From assembly GCA_001801485.1 (NCBI GenBank), contig MGXV01000090.1, positions 1-5,815 of the forward strand: DNA of 5,815 bases, read 5' to 3'. Shown here piece by piece: positions 247 through 5,815 of the stretch (position 1 is its first letter; each line of letters opens with the position of its first letter). The position numbers and the translations under genes are program-made. Below the pieces are notes generated by a model. It was not told the DNA's origin. It made no database searches and saw nothing but the letters and a program-made list of their open reading frames with translations. Source of the stretch: Gammaproteobacteria bacterium RIFCSPHIGHO2_12_FULL_37_14 (lineage in GTDB: Bacteria; Pseudomonadota; Gammaproteobacteria; DSM-16500).

Positions 247-615
247 TTACTTATCAGGTATACAAACTCGAATACGATGTCCATCTGGATCAAGCGCTAC
301 AAAAGTGAGTCCGAATACTGCTTCATGCAGGTCTTGTTCAATCACTACCCCGAGATTTTCCCACTGTTTGCGGAGTGTGCGCACCGTATCTTCATCCTTT
401 ACCATAAAGGCAAGTTCGCAACGATGACCAGCACCTCCTGAAACAAAGTTTTTAGCTTGTATAGACCATAAGCTGAACGTTAATCCGTTTTCAAAGAAAA
501 AAGCCACATAGGTTGGAAATGAGGCGACAGGCTTTACAGAAAAAATCTTTTCGTAGAATAAAGCACTTGATTCCGGATTTTCTACATAAAACAGCAATAA
601 ATTAGGGACGAGCAT
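247..615 (-). CDS. VOC-family (glyoxalase/bleomycin-resistance fold) protein
   Basis: A 122-residue protein with the length and pattern of a two-module VOC protein: beta-alpha-beta-beta-beta units at about 1-50 (MLVPNLLLFYVENPESSALFY) and 65-118 (CELAFMVKDEDTV to DPDGHRIRVC). The 'ALDPDGHRIRV' ending is the usual VOC C-terminal strand. In metal-dependent glyoxalases and dioxygenases the residue after 'DPDGxxI' is normally a metal-binding Glu; here it is Arg116, so a metal-free binding or sequestration role, as in bleomycin-resistance proteins, is more likely than catalysis. The ATG at 615-613 has an SD (AAGGAA) about 8 bases upstream. It is divergent from a YafY-type regulator across about 85 bases with overlapping promoters, suggesting control by that protein. 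The substrate cannot be told from sequence. Confidence 0.88.
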   Translation of the reverse strand: MLVPNLLLFYVENPESSALFYEKIFSVKPVASFPTYVAFFFENGLTFSLWSIQAKNFVSGGAGHRCELAFMVKDEDTVRTLRKQWENLGVVIEQDLHEAVFGLTFVALDPDGHRIRVCIPDK

Positions 616-676: not shown

Positions 677-700
677 AAAATGGCAGTAGTAATTTTAGCT

Positions 701-1090
701 ATGAATAGAACTGAACGACTTTTAAATTTACTAAAGATTTTAAGAAGTTATCGCTATCCCGTCAACGGAGAACGTCTAGTGGAACGATTAGATGTAAGTA
801 TTAGAACCTTGTATCGTGACATCGCCACCCTTCAAGCAATGGGTGCCGAAATTAGAGGAGAAGCTGGTATTGGATATATTCTTAAGCCAACCTTCTTTCT
901 GCCACCCCTTATGTTTACGAAAACCGAGATAGAATCATTACTTTTAGGTACACAATGGGTTTCACAGTTCGGAGACGCACCCTTATCCAAAGGAGCAAGA
1001 GATGCCTTAAATAAAATATCCGATGTTCTACCTGCTAATAGGCCCATTGTGAAGCTACGTCCGATGAGCCGCCAAGTGCATAATATTTAA
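701..1090 (+). CDS. YafY-type HTH regulator lacking its WYL domain (C-terminally truncated)
   Basis: From the ATG at 701 this gives 129 residues. It begins MNRTERLLNLLKILR, the standard start of YafY/DeoR-like HTH_11 regulators. The recognition helix is at 33-41 (SIRTLYRDI), the wing at 53-61 (GEAGIGYIL), followed by the family linker LPPLMFTKTEIESLLLG (67-83) and a helical stretch RDALNKISDVLP (100-111). An ATG at 680 would add seven residues (MAVVILA) not typical of the family, has no SD and almost no leader, so 701 is preferred, though 701 also lacks a clear SD. Family members usually have about 230 residues with a C-terminal WYL ligand-sensing domain. Here the sequence departs from the family pattern after VLPA (near base 1035) and stops, and the terpenoid operon ends 38 bases later on the other strand. 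It may be a remnant or a domain-only DNA binder of the VOC promoter. Confidence 0.8.
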   Translation: MNRTERLLNLLKILRSYRYPVNGERLVERLDVSIRTLYRDIATLQAMGAEIRGEAGIGYILKPTFFLPPLMFTKTEIESLLLGTQWVSQFGDAPLSKGARDALNKISDVLPANRPIVKLRPMSRQVHNI

Positions 1091-1127: not shown

Positions 1128-1811
1128 CTATTTCATCCGTGCCACATATTCCATGAGACGCTGATTATTGCATACCGCTTCTCGCAAGGGGTTATCAATA
1201 GGGGTATAAATAATCACGCTTAAAAACGCATAAACCGTCGCATCGATAGAGGTAGGTTTGTCGCCAAAAAAATAGTGATTGCTGCCAAGTAAGGTTGCGA
1301 TTGCATGAATGTCTTGCTTGCCAATAGAGTAAATTTCTTCGCGAGTATGACGACCTATTCCTTGTCCATGCGCTTGTTTCTTTAAATTACGGCGAATGAT
1401 GGCCAAAATAAGTGGCGAAAGGAGACGCGGGAAAAATTGTTTAAACGCATCATTGATAAACTTCTTGCCAACTGGATCTATCCAGCGTGAATATAAAATA
1501 ACAAAATATAAATTTTCTTCAATCATGCGTCGCACAGCGATCGCCATCGCCTGCTGTTCTGCTGTTAAATGCGCATCTAATGTGTTACCAAATTTATTTT
1601 TTAGATACTCTAAAATGAAACCGGAATCCGGAATAATCTTGTCACCATCTTTAAGCACTGGCATTTTACCTTTGGGTCCACGACGTGGGTCATTTTCAAC
1701 TACTACCTTATATGGAATGCCGGTCATTTTTAAATACGTTTCAACCTTTATGCAAAACGGACTTAGGCTTGGTAACTCCCAACAACCAGGATATTGATGT
1801 AATGTAATCAT
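1128..1811 (-). CDS. Fax/metaxin-type glutathione S-transferase-like protein
   Basis: A 227-residue two-domain GST-fold protein, last gene of the operon. The thioredoxin-like N-domain (about 1-75) carries SPFC (17-20) followed by IKVETYLKM, the 'SPFCxKVExYLxM' signature of the Fax/metaxin/cadmium-detoxification subgroup; KMPVL (49-53) with the conserved cis-Pro51; and PDSGFILEYL with Ser63, the usual glutathione gamma-glutamyl contact. The all-helical C-domain has the subgroup's GQGIGRHTREEI (149-160) and FFGDKPTSIDATVYAFL (181-197), including the N-capping Ser/Asp. Cys20 or Ser17 are candidate catalytic residues. No signal peptide, so cytoplasmic. The ATG overlaps the upstream TGA as ATGA (1811-1808), with GGAA upstream as a modest SD. 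Members' substrates are mostly unknown; next to a flavin monooxygenase and P450 it may conjugate, isomerise or detoxify an oxidised terpenoid (inference), by analogy with GSTs that open epoxides in bacterial isoprene degradation. Confidence 0.87.
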   Translation of the reverse strand: MITLHQYPGCWELPSLSPFCIKVETYLKMTGIPYKVVVENDPRRGPKGKMPVLKDGDKIIPDSGFILEYLKNKFGNTLDAHLTAEQQAMAIAVRRMIEENLYFVILYSRWIDPVGKKFINDAFKQFFPRLLSPLILAIIRRNLKKQAHGQGIGRHTREEIYSIGKQDIHAIATLLGSNHYFFGDKPTSIDATVYAFLSVIIYTPIDNPLREAVCNNQRLMEYVARMK

Positions 1812-2953
1812 ATCGAAATTCCATGCAATTTACGTAAAAATTTTAAATGAATTTTTTCACTTCTAACACAAATCTGATAAAGTTTGTCTAAACAAAAATG
1901 CAAGATGCGCAGCTTAAGTTTTTTATTTTGGTAGGCACGCTTGTCTTCAGTAGTAGCCATTAACCAAGAAAAAGCTATGACTTTGTCTATTTTTTTCTGA
2001 ATGAGACGCGTATTCACGTTAGCATTATTAACAAAATGTCTATCCAATAACGCCACTTGCTTAGCAGCCAACATCATCCCTTGTCCATAAATCGGGTTTA
2101 TCTTACATGCTGCATCCCCTAGCACCACTACATTTCTCGGCCAAGGTTTTATTTTACTTAGATGACGATGTTTATTGTTTAAATCCGTAAACAATTTAAT
2201 GTCTGAAACAGGTGTTGCCCCTATCAAATATTCAATGATCTCTGGGTTATTTAATTGCGCAAGGTGTTGCAAAAAACTTTCCTGATTTTTGCTTGGTCGT
2301 GCGTTTCCGCGCCCGATGAGTGTGACAACAACTTTATTTTCCTCTATGGGTGAAATAACGCAACCACGGTCATTTATACCTATATAGACAGGCACATAAA
2401 TTTGTTTAAAAGGCGCTGAATGGTTATCAGGTAATTGATAAAATTGAGTGGCATAAGATAAATTGTTAGTAACAATTGTAGTTTGAGCGTTCTTTAAAGT
2501 AGCAATCTCAGCATTTCGCCCTCGCGCATCAACGAAAAAATCTGCGCTACTGCTTTCATCATTCATACCATATTTAAATTTAATATTAGGTATAGCTTGC
2601 AACCACTGATACATCAATTTGTCGAGCAATAACCGGCTACAATTAACTGTCACAATTCCTGAATGAAAACGTGGATACATTCCAAAAGGGCTATGCCAAA
2701 CTGTATCCGCCGCCCAATCGACTTCTTTGCAACCTAAGCGACGCATTTCATCTAATATTCCAAGAAAATAGTGTTCTAAAATGTTTTGACCTTCTTTTAA
2801 CAGCACGTGTAAATGAGGGGCTTGTGCAATACCCGCTGAAACATGCGAAAACTTTTCCTCAATGATGACTTGTTTAAAATGACGTGACAACATGGCGGCG
2901 CTTAGCATTCCAGCGAAACCACCGCCTAGAATAACTGCACTATCCCGCTTCAA
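1808..2953 (-). CDS. FAD-dependent monooxygenase (possible epoxidase/hydroxylase)
   Basis: A 381-residue flavoprotein. The N-terminal Rossmann motif is LGGGFAGM (GxGxxG, residues 10-15), followed by the acidic strand end VIIEEK (29-34). AQAPHLHVLLKEG (43-55) resembles the 'Q-x-x-H-x-H-x-LL' segment of flavin monooxygenases that include polyether and squalene-type epoxidases. VDARGRNA (141-148) is the mid-chain FAD/NAD(P)H contact, and VVLGDAACKINPIYGQGMMLA (276-296) is the second FAD-binding GD motif, GDA-x5-P-x2-GQG. The C-terminus is basic and helical without a clear membrane anchor. It starts with TTG (2953-2951), whose last two bases lie in the preceding gene's TGA; GAGG about 7 bases upstream is a good SD, and the next Met (16) is already inside the FAD motif, so TTG is the only sensible start. 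It probably oxidises the terpene product or a P450 product; epoxidation versus hydroxylation is undecided. Confidence 0.88.
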   Translation of the reverse strand: MKRDSAVILGGGFAGMLSAAMLSRHFKQVIIEEKFSHVSAGIAQAPHLHVLLKEGQNILEHYFLGILDEMRRLGCKEVDWAADTVWHSPFGMYPRFHSGIVTVNCSRLLLDKLMYQWLQAIPNIKFKYGMNDESSSADFFVDARGRNAEIATLKNAQTTIVTNNLSYATQFYQLPDNHSAPFKQIYVPVYIGINDRGCVISPIEENKVVVTLIGRGNARPSKNQESFLQHLAQLNNPEIIEYLIGATPVSDIKLFTDLNNKHRHLSKIKPWPRNVVVLGDAACKINPIYGQGMMLAAKQVALLDRHFVNNANVNTRLIQKKIDKVIAFSWLMATTEDKRAYQNKKLKLRILHFCLDKLYQICVRSEKIHLKFLRKLHGISI

Positions 2954-3804
2954 ATGCTGCCTCGCGACTCTTCATGTAAATGATGAAGCTGTTGCATACT
3001 ATTGATATATTTCATCGCATCGAAGGATTTAAGCTTATCCTGTATTGCAAGCATTTTTTGCAATAGTATTTTCTGCTCTTTCAATGCGTGATTTTCACTG
3101 ACCATGAGCAATTCACTCGAATAATCTTGCTCGTTGATTTCTCGATCAAAGGTAATTAGATTATTGGATATTTTTGCATAACGTTGAGCCAAAATGAATA
3201 GCTCACGCGATATACCAAGCTCATTCATGTCAAAGTTTGGTGACGCCATGATATCCATTATCCCAACCAATACAATTCCCATGTTATACGAACTATAATA
3301 TTGAATCTCAGTTAGGTTTTTTAATTTAGGATATTTTCGTAATATCTCAAAATATCGGTTGCATTGGTGAAACTGCTTCAAATCAAAAACAAATAATTCA
3401 CTATAGCAAGCATGGTGCGGTAAGATGGAAAGTGATTTAATCATATCCTCGCAAATATCTATCGCTAACCCAATGACTGCTTTAGAAAATTCACAATCTG
3501 TTTGTGTAATTTCATCTAAAGCACTACCCCTTGTTGGACTGCGATGAAAATAAGGCAGATCATAAAGCTTGTCCAGTAATTGCGGTTGATTAAAGTTCGG
3601 ATGATCGGCAAAATCATCAAATAAAGTAATCAACATGCCTAAATGAAGCTTGGCAGACAATAGATCAGGAAAAAATTCATCAGCAACAGAGCTCAGCGTC
3701 GTTAGTTGATAACCTTTCAGTAAAAAATGATTAAATAAATATTCTTGCCGATGAGGAAAATACTCACGATACAATTTAATTTTTTTGATATAATTATCAT
3801 TCAT
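2950..3804 (-). CDS. Class I terpene synthase-like protein (divergent, short)
   Basis: A 284-residue, mostly helical protein with both metal-binding motifs of class I terpene cyclases in the right order. The aspartate-rich motif is DDFAD (63-67, DDxxD) in the context LITLFDDFADHP. The NSE-type triad is NNLITFDRE (214-222), with Asn214, Thr218 and Glu222 at the canonical spacing. The 151-residue gap between them is normal for bacterial cyclases. Known enzymes use these motifs to bind three Mg ions and the diphosphate of GPP, FPP or GGPP. Unusual points: NN in place of ND in the triad; no evident diphosphate-sensor Arg about 45 residues before it (the segment reads IQYYSSYNMG); no C-terminal Arg-Tyr pair; and it is shorter than the usual roughly 320-350 residues. 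There is no second DDxxD, which argues against a prenyl diphosphate synthase. The ATG overlaps the P450 stop (ATGA, 3804-3801) and has no SD, so translation is probably coupled. Substrate and product are unknown; impaired or altered activity is possible. Confidence 0.78.
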   Translation of the reverse strand: MNDNYIKKIKLYREYFPHRQEYLFNHFLLKGYQLTTLSSVADEFFPDLLSAKLHLGMLITLFDDFADHPNFNQPQLLDKLYDLPYFHRSPTRGSALDEITQTDCEFSKAVIGLAIDICEDMIKSLSILPHHACYSELFVFDLKQFHQCNRYFEILRKYPKLKNLTEIQYYSSYNMGIVLVGIMDIMASPNFDMNELGISRELFILAQRYAKISNNLITFDREINEQDYSSELLMVSENHALKEQKILLQKMLAIQDKLKSFDAMKYINSMQQLHHLHEESRGSI

Positions 3805-5027
3805 CGTTTTATAACTCGTAAGTTAATATTTCCCACAGGGTGTAATGTAACCATGGCCTGCATTTTTAATGGTTGATTATCCGGCAAAGAAAACTGATAG
3901 CGCTGGCATAATCTCGATATTGCTAATACCGCTTCCATCATTGCCATCGCATGTCCGCTGCATATTCGTTTTCCCATGCCAAATGGAAGAAATGAAAAGC
4001 GCGGCTTATCATCCAAAAAAAACCGTTCTGGCTTACAAGAGTCCGGCGAACTCCAATAGTCAGGGTGTCGTTGAATTTCGCGCACACTAAGAAAAATATT
4101 ATCGCCTTTTGCAATATTTTGTTCGCAAAGCAACGTATCTGTTACCGCTTGTCGTGCCAACATCCATGCCGGTGGATATAAACGCAGCGTCTCTTTATAG
4201 ACAGCCGTAGTATATGATTTTTTATCATCATCACATATTATTTTATCTTGTAGCTCAGGATATTTTGCTATCAAATATAAAGAACTTGCTAACGATGCCG
4301 CTGTTGTTTCAAATCCAGCAAACAAAAATGTCATGAGTTGATCAACGATTAATTCTGTCGCGTCATTATCTACCATGGGGATTTGCTGTCGTAGTACAGA
4401 CATTAAGCTAACACCTTCTGTGTATTGCGATGTGACTAACGCCATTATTTTTGAGCGTAACGCCTGTTGAATGCCATAAATTCTGATGCTTGGTAAGCTC
4501 AGCAATGACCGCATCCTTACACCGCAGCGAGCATTCAATTCTAAAAATAATGATGAAAATGATTCAACCGTTTCGTTATTAACGTTGCCAAAAATAACAG
4601 TTAGTGCAGTTTTGAGTGTATAGCTCGTCATTAATGCCATGATATTAACTGCGTCCGCACCGTCAATTTTCTCACATTCTTTATCTAAAAAATAAATCAT
4701 CATTTCCGGATAGCGCGCCATATATTGACGCTGAAAAATTTCATTCGTGATTTTTCGCATCCGCGCCCATTCATCATTTTCTAATTGTACCAGCCCCCGT
4801 CTTCCTGTGATTGGTCGGATTTTATTGAAGATCAAACGCGATTTTTGAAATTGGTCTGTTTTCATGCCTAGCATCGCTTCGGCATATTTTGGGTGGCAGG
4901 CAAAATGAATTTTTTTGATACCCAAATGCACTGTGAAAAAATCGCCTTGTTCTTTACGTTGATTAGTGATGAATGCAAGAGGATCTTGTGTAAATGATCT
5001 TAGTTGTTTGAATTGTTTTAGCATCAT
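3801..5027 (-). CDS. Cytochrome P450, soluble bacterial type
   Basis: A 408-residue P450 with all key motifs: C-helix WxxxR (Trp87-Arg91, EWARMRK), I-helix oxygen-activation motif AGFETT (237-242), K-helix KETLR (ExxR, Glu279-Arg282), PERF (333-336) and the heme loop FGMGKRICSG (349-358) with Cys356 as axial thiolate. The typical bacterial length and lack of an N-terminal membrane segment indicate a cytoplasmic enzyme that needs an external ferredoxin and reductase; neither is in the window. The pattern (WxxxR, PERF, ETLRLYPPAW) is closer to the CYP102/CYP4-like 'E-class' style than to typical actinobacterial P450s. It is first of the four main operon genes and is probably the oxidase for a terpenoid made by the next gene. 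The start is one of two adjacent ATGs (5027 or 5024) with no SD; the sequence upstream is CCTCTC-rich, so initiation may depend on the small leader frame ending 19 bases upstream. Confidence 0.95.
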   Translation of the reverse strand: MMLKQFKQLRSFTQDPLAFITNQRKEQGDFFTVHLGIKKIHFACHPKYAEAMLGMKTDQFQKSRLIFNKIRPITGRRGLVQLENDEWARMRKITNEIFQRQYMARYPEMMIYFLDKECEKIDGADAVNIMALMTSYTLKTALTVIFGNVNNETVESFSSLFLELNARCGVRMRSLLSLPSIRIYGIQQALRSKIMALVTSQYTEGVSLMSVLRQQIPMVDNDATELIVDQLMTFLFAGFETTAASLASSLYLIAKYPELQDKIICDDDKKSYTTAVYKETLRLYPPAWMLARQAVTDTLLCEQNIAKGDNIFLSVREIQRHPDYWSSPDSCKPERFFLDDKPRFSFLPFGMGKRICSGHAMAMMEAVLAISRLCQRYQFSLPDNQPLKMQAMVTLHPVGNINLRVIKR

Positions 5028-5310: not shown

Positions 5311-5815
5311 ATGAAAATCGGTTACGCGCGTGTTTCTACCGCCGATCAGCACCTAAGAATGCAAGAAGATGCATTGAAGAGCGCTGGGTGTGAAGAAATC
5401 TATTCTGATGTTATCAGTGGTGTTAAATCTCAACGTCCTGGATTGGAAAAAGCACTGAATTATGCTCGTGAAGGTGACACTATTGTTGTATGGAAATTGG
5501 ATAGGCTAGGCCGTTCGATACAGCATCTAATTCAAACCATCACATCGTTAATAGAAAAGAAAATTGCTTTTAAAAGTTTACAAGAAAACATTGATACCTC
5601 CACCAGTGGTGGTAAGCTTATTTTCCATATTTTCAGTGCGTTAGCAGAGTTTGAACGAGATCTTATTCAAGAAAGAACTCAAGCCGGGTTAAAGGCTGCA
5701 AGGGTGCGTGGAAAAATGGGTGGTAGACCGCCGTTGCTTGATACCAGGCAGATTAATCGAATGATTGAAATGTATGATGAACAGAAAAATACCGTGGCTG
5801 AGATTTGTAAAATCT
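5311..5815 (+). CDS. Serine recombinase (resolvase/DNA invertase family), cut at right edge
   Basis: 168 codons are visible and the frame is still open at the window end. The catalytic domain begins MKIGYARVSTADQ with the nucleophile Ser9 and Arg7, and continues with ISGVKSQRPGLEKAL (35-49), VVWKLDRLGRS (59-69) containing active-site Arg65 and Arg68, and GGKLIFHIFSALAEFERDLI (100-119), the long E-helix. GKMGGRPPLL (134-143) is the hinge to the C-terminal HTH, which is entered but incomplete. The family is usually about 185-200 residues, so only a short piece is missing. Such enzymes cut and rejoin DNA at paired sites through a 5'-phosphoserine link, resolving transposon cointegrates or inverting segments. 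The start is fixed by SD AGGAG (5301-5305). It is divergent from the operon across about 200 bases, suggesting a mobile-element boundary nearby. Confidence 0.95.
   Translation, partial: MKIGYARVSTADQHLRMQEDALKSAGCEEIYSDVISGVKSQRPGLEKALNYAREGDTIVVWKLDRLGRSIQHLIQTITSLIEKKIAFKSLQENIDTSTSGGKLIFHIFSALAEFERDLIQERTQAGLKAARVRGKMGGRPPLLDTRQINRMIEMYDEQKNTVAEICKI

Follow-up and report, generated by a model that had tools for sequence, protein, structure and literature searches.

A cluster of four genes has been found in the 5,815-nucleotide (nt) stretch of Gammaproteobacteria bacterium RIFCSPHIGHO2_12_FULL_37_14 analysed here (contig MGXV01000090.1; the whole stretch is referred to as the window). It codes for a cytochrome P450, a predicted class I terpene synthase, a flavoenzyme related to epoxidases and a glutathione S-transferase (GST), and very likely serves a terpenoid pathway. 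The evidence inclines slightly towards one translationally coupled operon, in which a terpene is made from farnesyl diphosphate (FPP), oxidised by the P450, epoxidised by the flavoenzyme and opened with glutathione; that an epoxide is made and then opened in this way is favoured by a similarly narrow preference. In such a route, the synthase would ionise FPP to yield a terpene, either an olefin or an alcohol, which the P450 would hydroxylate; the flavoenzyme would epoxidise a remaining double bond, and the GST would open the epoxide with glutathione. The outcome would be a thio-terpenoid, or a rearranged compound if glutathione is then lost. In some Bdellovibrionota, a Rieske oxygenase would be an added fifth step (Legionellales and Bdellovibrionota are used here as labels for the order of Legionella norrlandica and the phylum of Bdellovibrio sp. 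qaytius, respectively). By sequence or predicted structure, the fold and metal-binding motifs of the synthase, the haem cysteine of the P450, the kinship of the flavoenzyme with epoxidases, that of the GST with epoxide-type enzymes and the presence of the set in two phyla have been demonstrated. The proposal that an epoxide is opened follows mainly from the fact that an epoxidase-like enzyme adjoins a relative of epoxide GSTs, the two genes being overlapped and co-inherited. The frames and motifs of the cluster are the following:

3801..5027, minus strand: cytochrome P450, 408 aa, first gene of the cluster (PF00067, E 8.8e-55)
3954..3983, minus strand: P450 haem-thiolate loop FGMGKRICSG, residues 349-358 (FGxGxxxCxG in 18/18)
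2950..3804, minus strand: predicted class I terpene synthase of a divergent family, 284 aa (metal motifs and predicted fold)
3604..3618, minus strand: metal-binding motif DDFAD (DDxxD), residues 63-67 (D63, D64 and D67 invariant in 59 sequences)
3139..3165, minus strand: second metal-binding motif NNLITFDRE (NSE-type NxxxTxxxE), residues 214-222 (N214, T218 and E222 invariant in 59 sequences)
1808..2953, minus strand: flavin adenine dinucleotide (FAD)-dependent monooxygenase, Lsd18/MonCI epoxidase-like, 381 aa, TTG start (LasC/Lsd18 E 4.3e-33, MonCI 6e-29)
1128..1811, minus strand: GST, IsoI/StyI-like, 227 aa, last gene (StyI 9qd3 E 2.9e-31)
1752..1769, minus strand: GST N-terminal motif SLSPFC, residues 15-20 (19/19 cluster GSTs)

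The compact four-gene operon described in the initial annotation was recovered in full, with all frames confirmed from 5027 down to 1128 and with Pfam matches for three of the four proteins. Neighbouring frames overlap by 4 nt each (3801-3804, 2950-2953 and 1808-1811), and such an overlap at every junction is the usual sign of translational coupling. A promoter and terminator scan of the window gave nothing above shuffled sequence (18 vs 17.1 and 0 vs 3.8, respectively). The assignment of the 284-residue protein to the class I terpene synthases, also proposed in that annotation, is supported by profile and predicted-structure comparison. Its six metal-motif residues are invariant in the 59-sequence alignment, both motifs are found in 19/19 cluster members, and the predicted structure has the terpene synthase (alpha) fold; because of this invariance and this fold, DDFAD and NNLITFDRE are taken as more than chance occurrences. 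The window synthase gave no Pfam or NCBIfam match, and PF19086 and PF03936 were matched by 14/25 and 7/25 members of its family (E up to 1; best 9.4e-6 and 4.9e-6, respectively). Identity to bacterial class I terpene synthases such as Sat1646, the T-muurolol synthase TmS and selinadiene synthase is 6-13% among the matches listed. An RY pair is the rule for bacterial terpene synthases, whereas none is present in the last 60 residues of the 19/19 cluster synthases. In Legionella, the homologue P0024 carries the NCBI name 'terpene synthase family protein'; thus, the gene has not gone wholly unnoticed by automatic annotation.

The same arrangement has been encountered well outside the window. Loci were gathered via the synthase, which is present in all of them by construction, and the gene content of the widened loci was compared by tblastn. 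A synthase scan of GTDB genomes gave eight loci; by whole-genome search, the synthase was detected in 10/143 Legionellales and 18/368 Bdellovibrionota genomes, and the synthase-bearing genomes total 29, including one Deltaproteobacteria metagenome-assembled genome. In this last (L010), the synthase is accompanied by a different FAD enzyme, and a P450 match was not obtained within the stretch compared. The order P450-synthase-flavoenzyme-GST on one strand is conserved in 9/10 Legionellales and 8/18 Bdellovibrionota genomes (L007, L042, L045-L050), so that the co-occurrence elsewhere on which the initial annotation depended extends to 17 other genomes of two phyla. A chance or one-off layout is ruled out by this recurrence, found in 17/28 synthase-bearing genomes of the two groups. 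An IsoI-like GST gene comes directly after the flavoenzyme gene in 18/18 flavoenzyme-bearing loci besides the window (one frame broken), and the two frames overlap in 17/18 of them (starts chosen by script). Among metagenome relatives, synthases P0002 and P0004 and flavoenzymes P0052 and P0055 have longest contigs of identical lengths (5048 and 70633), which suggests that the two genes are linked there also. Other settings were considered and discarded: a broad distribution across the class of L. norrlandica is disfavoured by an even but sparse draw in which 1/369 genomes matched, this being the L. norrlandica centre (G005) itself; viral carriage, by 73 pattern stretches with 0 confirmed; and plasmid carriage, for which only six haloarchaeal records were obtained, at 23-27% identity. 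Haloarchaeal plasmids (L001 6001-6855 and L002 6001-6891) hold distant relatives of about 25% identity annotated as hypothetical, and in L001 a protein with prenyltransferase/squalene-oxidase repeats lies about 1.2 kb from the relative.

The four genes also share their history. Their proteins have correlated pairwise distances (0.97-0.99 over 18 loci, window included, and 0.85-0.94 over 13 loci thinned of near-copies); in a permutation test, 0/999 reached the observed correlation in any protein pair. Since vertical descent alone gives like correlations, these values speak for a shared history and not for its cause. In each gene tree, Legionellales and Bdellovibrionota rows fall on opposite sides of a branch, the support being 94/95 (P450), 82/90 (synthase), 99/98 (flavoenzyme) and 96/90 (GST); this branch leaves uncounted the window, whose tree position is unsteady between the two groups, and two rows of the P450-synthase type.

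Loci of this shorter type, found in Bdellovibrionota, have a gene of the GFA family after the P450-synthase pair in 9/10 cases (L004, L005, L009, L011, L040, L041, L043, L044 and L051; PF04828 in the two members tested), and L006 is without it. GFA is another glutathione-linked family, here occupying the place of the flavoenzyme and the GST. A LysR gene diverges from the P450 in 15/18 Bdellovibrionota (PF00126 in the one member tested; two pieces in L044), no match being obtained in L041, L047 and L049. A gene for a Rieske oxygenase comes after the GST in 4/8 four-gene Bdellovibrionota loci (L042, L045, L046 and L047), and cannot be judged in L049 because the contig ends 117 nt past the GST. 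P450s, flavin monooxygenases, Rieske oxygenases and IsoI-like GSTs all occur in degraders; a cassette consuming host or prey terpenoids could thus be imagined, the Rieske gene of the four loci being in its favour. However, a terpene synthase builds terpene skeletons and does not consume them, and the synthase stays beside the P450 even in the ten loci lacking the flavoenzyme and the GST, making degradation very improbable.

In the Pfam scan, the P450 matches PF00067 at the E value given above, and the I-helix AG(F/H)ETT, the ExLR (ExxR) motif and the haem-cysteine loop are present in 18/18 cluster P450s, window included. A terpene synthase adjoins a P450 also in the pentalenolactone and albaflavenone clusters of Streptomyces, which to our knowledge have no epoxide-type GST. 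The window P450 matches the pentalenene oxygenase model at 116 bits and the albaflavenone P450 model at 108, although both scores are far under the cut-offs (800 and 700, respectively). No ferredoxin or reductase was recognised among window frames of at least 80 aa. A reductase with Fer2, FAD and NAD domains lies beside a truncated globin near the cluster in L047 (3694-5043; Bdellovibrionota) and L057 (12430-13754; Legionellales), and look-alike genes, judged by eye, are present in L058-L060; the L047/L057 reductase is possibly a redox partner of the P450, or possibly part of plain nitric-oxide defence.

The flavoenzyme matches two Pfam families, Trp_halogenase (over the cut-off, at profile positions 3-97 of 458 only) and FAD_binding_3. 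A tryptophan halogenase was considered and rejected, because the Pfam match is partial and a WxWxI-type signature, which we take to be that of tryptophan halogenases, was found by pattern search in 0/19. Under E 0.001, the solved relatives are LasC/Lsd18 and MonCI only (9/9 rows), which the available parts of the sources present as flavin epoxidases of polyether biosynthesis. The alignment to these enzymes spans the nucleotide-binding start and the GD...P.YG.GM motif; shared are stretches 4-113 and 135-337, the FAD motifs and a QxxHxH segment, whereas the window flavoenzyme is about 110-130 residues shorter. Across the family, the first and last FAD motifs (GxGxxG and GD(x6)P) and the QxxHxH segment are present in 19/19 flavoenzymes. 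The genomic setting differs from that of polyether pathways, in which epoxides are opened by an epoxide hydrolase and not by a GST, and no polyketide synthase was noticed by eye, in a reading without a dedicated search, among the frames neighbouring the cluster. Alternatively, the flavoenzyme might be a hydroxylase or reductase and the GST an isomerase or a non-catalytic partner, so that the terpenoid would be made without epoxide or thio-adduct. This is consistent with low-score NCBIfam matches that scatter among ubiquinone hydroxylases, geranylgeranyl reductase and others, with the name '2-polyprenyl-6-methoxyphenol hydroxylase-like' given by one source to close relatives, and with the absence of the middle FAD motif from the eight Bdellovibrionota copies. 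On the other hand, the restriction of solved relatives to polyether epoxidases and the IsoI-like GST that directly follows the flavoenzyme in every such locus argue for epoxide chemistry, and the alternative is unlikely.

The last protein had been labelled a Fax-type GST. The label stands in so far as Pfam gives GST_N_4, GST_C_6 and Tom37 at 115, 74 and 70 bits, all over cut-off, which is presumably the mark of Fax/metaxin proteins. It has been refined, since the closest solved relative is StyI (PDB 9qd3; E 2.9e-31, residues 1-199) and the NCBIfam IsoI model NF049950 is matched nearly end to end (positions 1-233 of 238, 168 bits). In the portions available of two papers (PMC8552685, PMC10057887), StyI and IsoI are described as using glutathione to open the epoxides of styrene and isoprene, and this kinship makes the GST a sensible partner for an epoxidase. 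The cluster GST is similar to these enzymes across most of its length; instead of belonging to isoprene or styrene degradation, however, it adjoins a terpene synthase, and no isoprene or styrene monooxygenase was recognised among window frames. IsoI-like GSTs (E up to 1e-15) occur in 67/143 Legionellales and 21/368 Bdellovibrionota genomes, and therefore most carriers are without this cluster. A second explanation is that the GST is a clean-up enzyme guarding the cell from leaked epoxide, the product being made by the synthase, the P450 and the flavoenzyme. IsoI and StyI handle reactive epoxides in degradation pathways according to the same partial sources (PMC8552685, PMC10057887), and IsoI-like GSTs are found in 57/143 Legionella-order genomes lacking the synthase (the five read lie outside such clusters), which indicates general roles for the family. 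In both groups, nevertheless, GSTs outside the cluster score lower: in Legionellales, cluster GSTs reach 317-360 bits vs at most 268 outside, and in Bdellovibrionota 262-358 bits (262 for the broken L048 copy) vs at most 220. The SLSPFC motif of the 19/19 cluster GSTs reads NPSPFC, NVSPFC, CMSPFC or NNSPFC in seven stand-alone copies, and these seven separate in a tree in which a branch with support 98/96 sets off the 19 cluster GSTs. The overlap with the flavoenzyme in 17/18 loci also fits a dedicated step better, without proving it. A protective role thus seems rather improbable, and glutathione opening as a step of the pathway is preferred.

As regards the substrate, no frame of the window was recognised as a prenyl diphosphate synthase, and none was noticed by eye in the loci read. 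Of ten polyprenyl synthases from genomes G004, G005, G061, G154 and G340, nine were examined (the other from G061 was left out). Five of these nine look short-chain by eye, each with a Y five residues before the first Asp-rich motif, the position used as a chain-length rule. A scan of four of the five gave the FPP synthase model as the best match in every case (275, 274, 225 and 277 bits; the cut-off of 275 is passed only by 277), making FPP the likeliest substrate in those relatives. By extension from them, FPP is also the candidate substrate in the window, and a C15 substrate is considered reasonably probable. Between 2 and 4 polyprenyl synthase genes were counted in each of 12 genomes (including G045, which is without this synthase family); a geranylgeranyl diphosphate synthase is therefore possible in other genomes, and a diterpene (C20) substrate retains some probability.

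Several observations weigh against the proposed route from FPP to a glutathione-opened epoxide. At the profile level, the synthase matches solved synthases weakly (E 0.15 and 0.02 at best), so that substrate and product are not readable from its sequence. The flavoenzyme shares only the framework of the epoxidases, its middle (D/E)xRGR motif being present in 11/19 (the window and all ten Legionellales) and in 0/8 Bdellovibrionota. The GST misses the IsoI equivalog cut-off of 300 bits (168 for the window, 130 and 140 for two relatives), and the 57 synthase-lacking genomes with an IsoI-like GST belong here as well. The cluster itself is not intact everywhere: in the tenth Legionellales genome (G058, L056) no P450 was found and the synthase frame is short, this copy being apparently in decay, and the GST frame of L048 looks broken near its end. 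Furthermore, the flavoenzyme and the GST are missing beside the P450-synthase pair of ten Bdellovibrionota; these two steps are consequently not in every version of the pathway. Finally, the Legionella species analysed in a 2026 paper lack canonical mevalonate enzymes, as stated in the part of the paper available, which leaves precursor supply there unsettled (PMC13001223).

Outside the cluster, a serine resolvase gene (5311-5814, plus strand) lies on the far side of the P450 and diverges from it; its DNA is 75.8% identical to part of an Aquicella lusitana plasmid, which hints at a mobile context. Beyond the GST lie an HTH regulator, a VOC protein and the start of a further regulator. The first of these, an HTH_11 regulator of 136 aa (680-1090, plus strand), is without the WYL domain of a 54%-identical relative in L074 (240 aa) and looks shortened. 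The VOC-fold protein (247-615, minus strand) gives weak matches to fosfomycin-glutathione-transferase models, far under cut-off. The regulator and VOC genes are also together in L074 (Legionella order), whose VOC protein is 30% identical. At 1-214 on the minus strand, what looks by eye like the start of a TetR-like regulator runs off the window, and a perfect 16-nt inverted repeat (176-191/199-214) lies within this stretch.

The initial annotation had suggested that the pathway may be undescribed, and no title or abstract start in the literature was found to deal with this cluster. A term search of the portion available of PMC7192455 gave no mention of Legionella, Bdellovibrio or glutathione, and the cluster is not described in the accessible parts of PMC13001223 and PMC10609062. 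None of the enzymes is new in type; as far as these partial sources go, what is new is their combination, its occurrence in two phyla and the divergent family of the synthase. Genome mining relying on PF19086 may miss this family, since 11/25 members are unmatched even at E 1. Judging from titles and abstract starts, terpenoid pathways in relatives of Legionella and Bdellovibrio seem little known. A tentative and somewhat doubtful extension is that a dedicated pathway, in which a flavin epoxidase of the polyether type forms a terpenoid epoxide and a GST of its own glutathionylates it to sulfur-bearing terpenoids, is common to Legionellales, which infect amoebae, and Bdellovibrionota, which eat bacteria. 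A second version would have a GFA-family protein in place of the last two enzymes. Should the GST act in biosynthesis, epoxidation followed by glutathione opening, which the sources partly available describe for the degradation of isoprene and styrene (PMC8552685, PMC10057887), would have been carried into terpene building. The compact four-gene unit conserved in both groups offers a testable route to a new class of metabolites.

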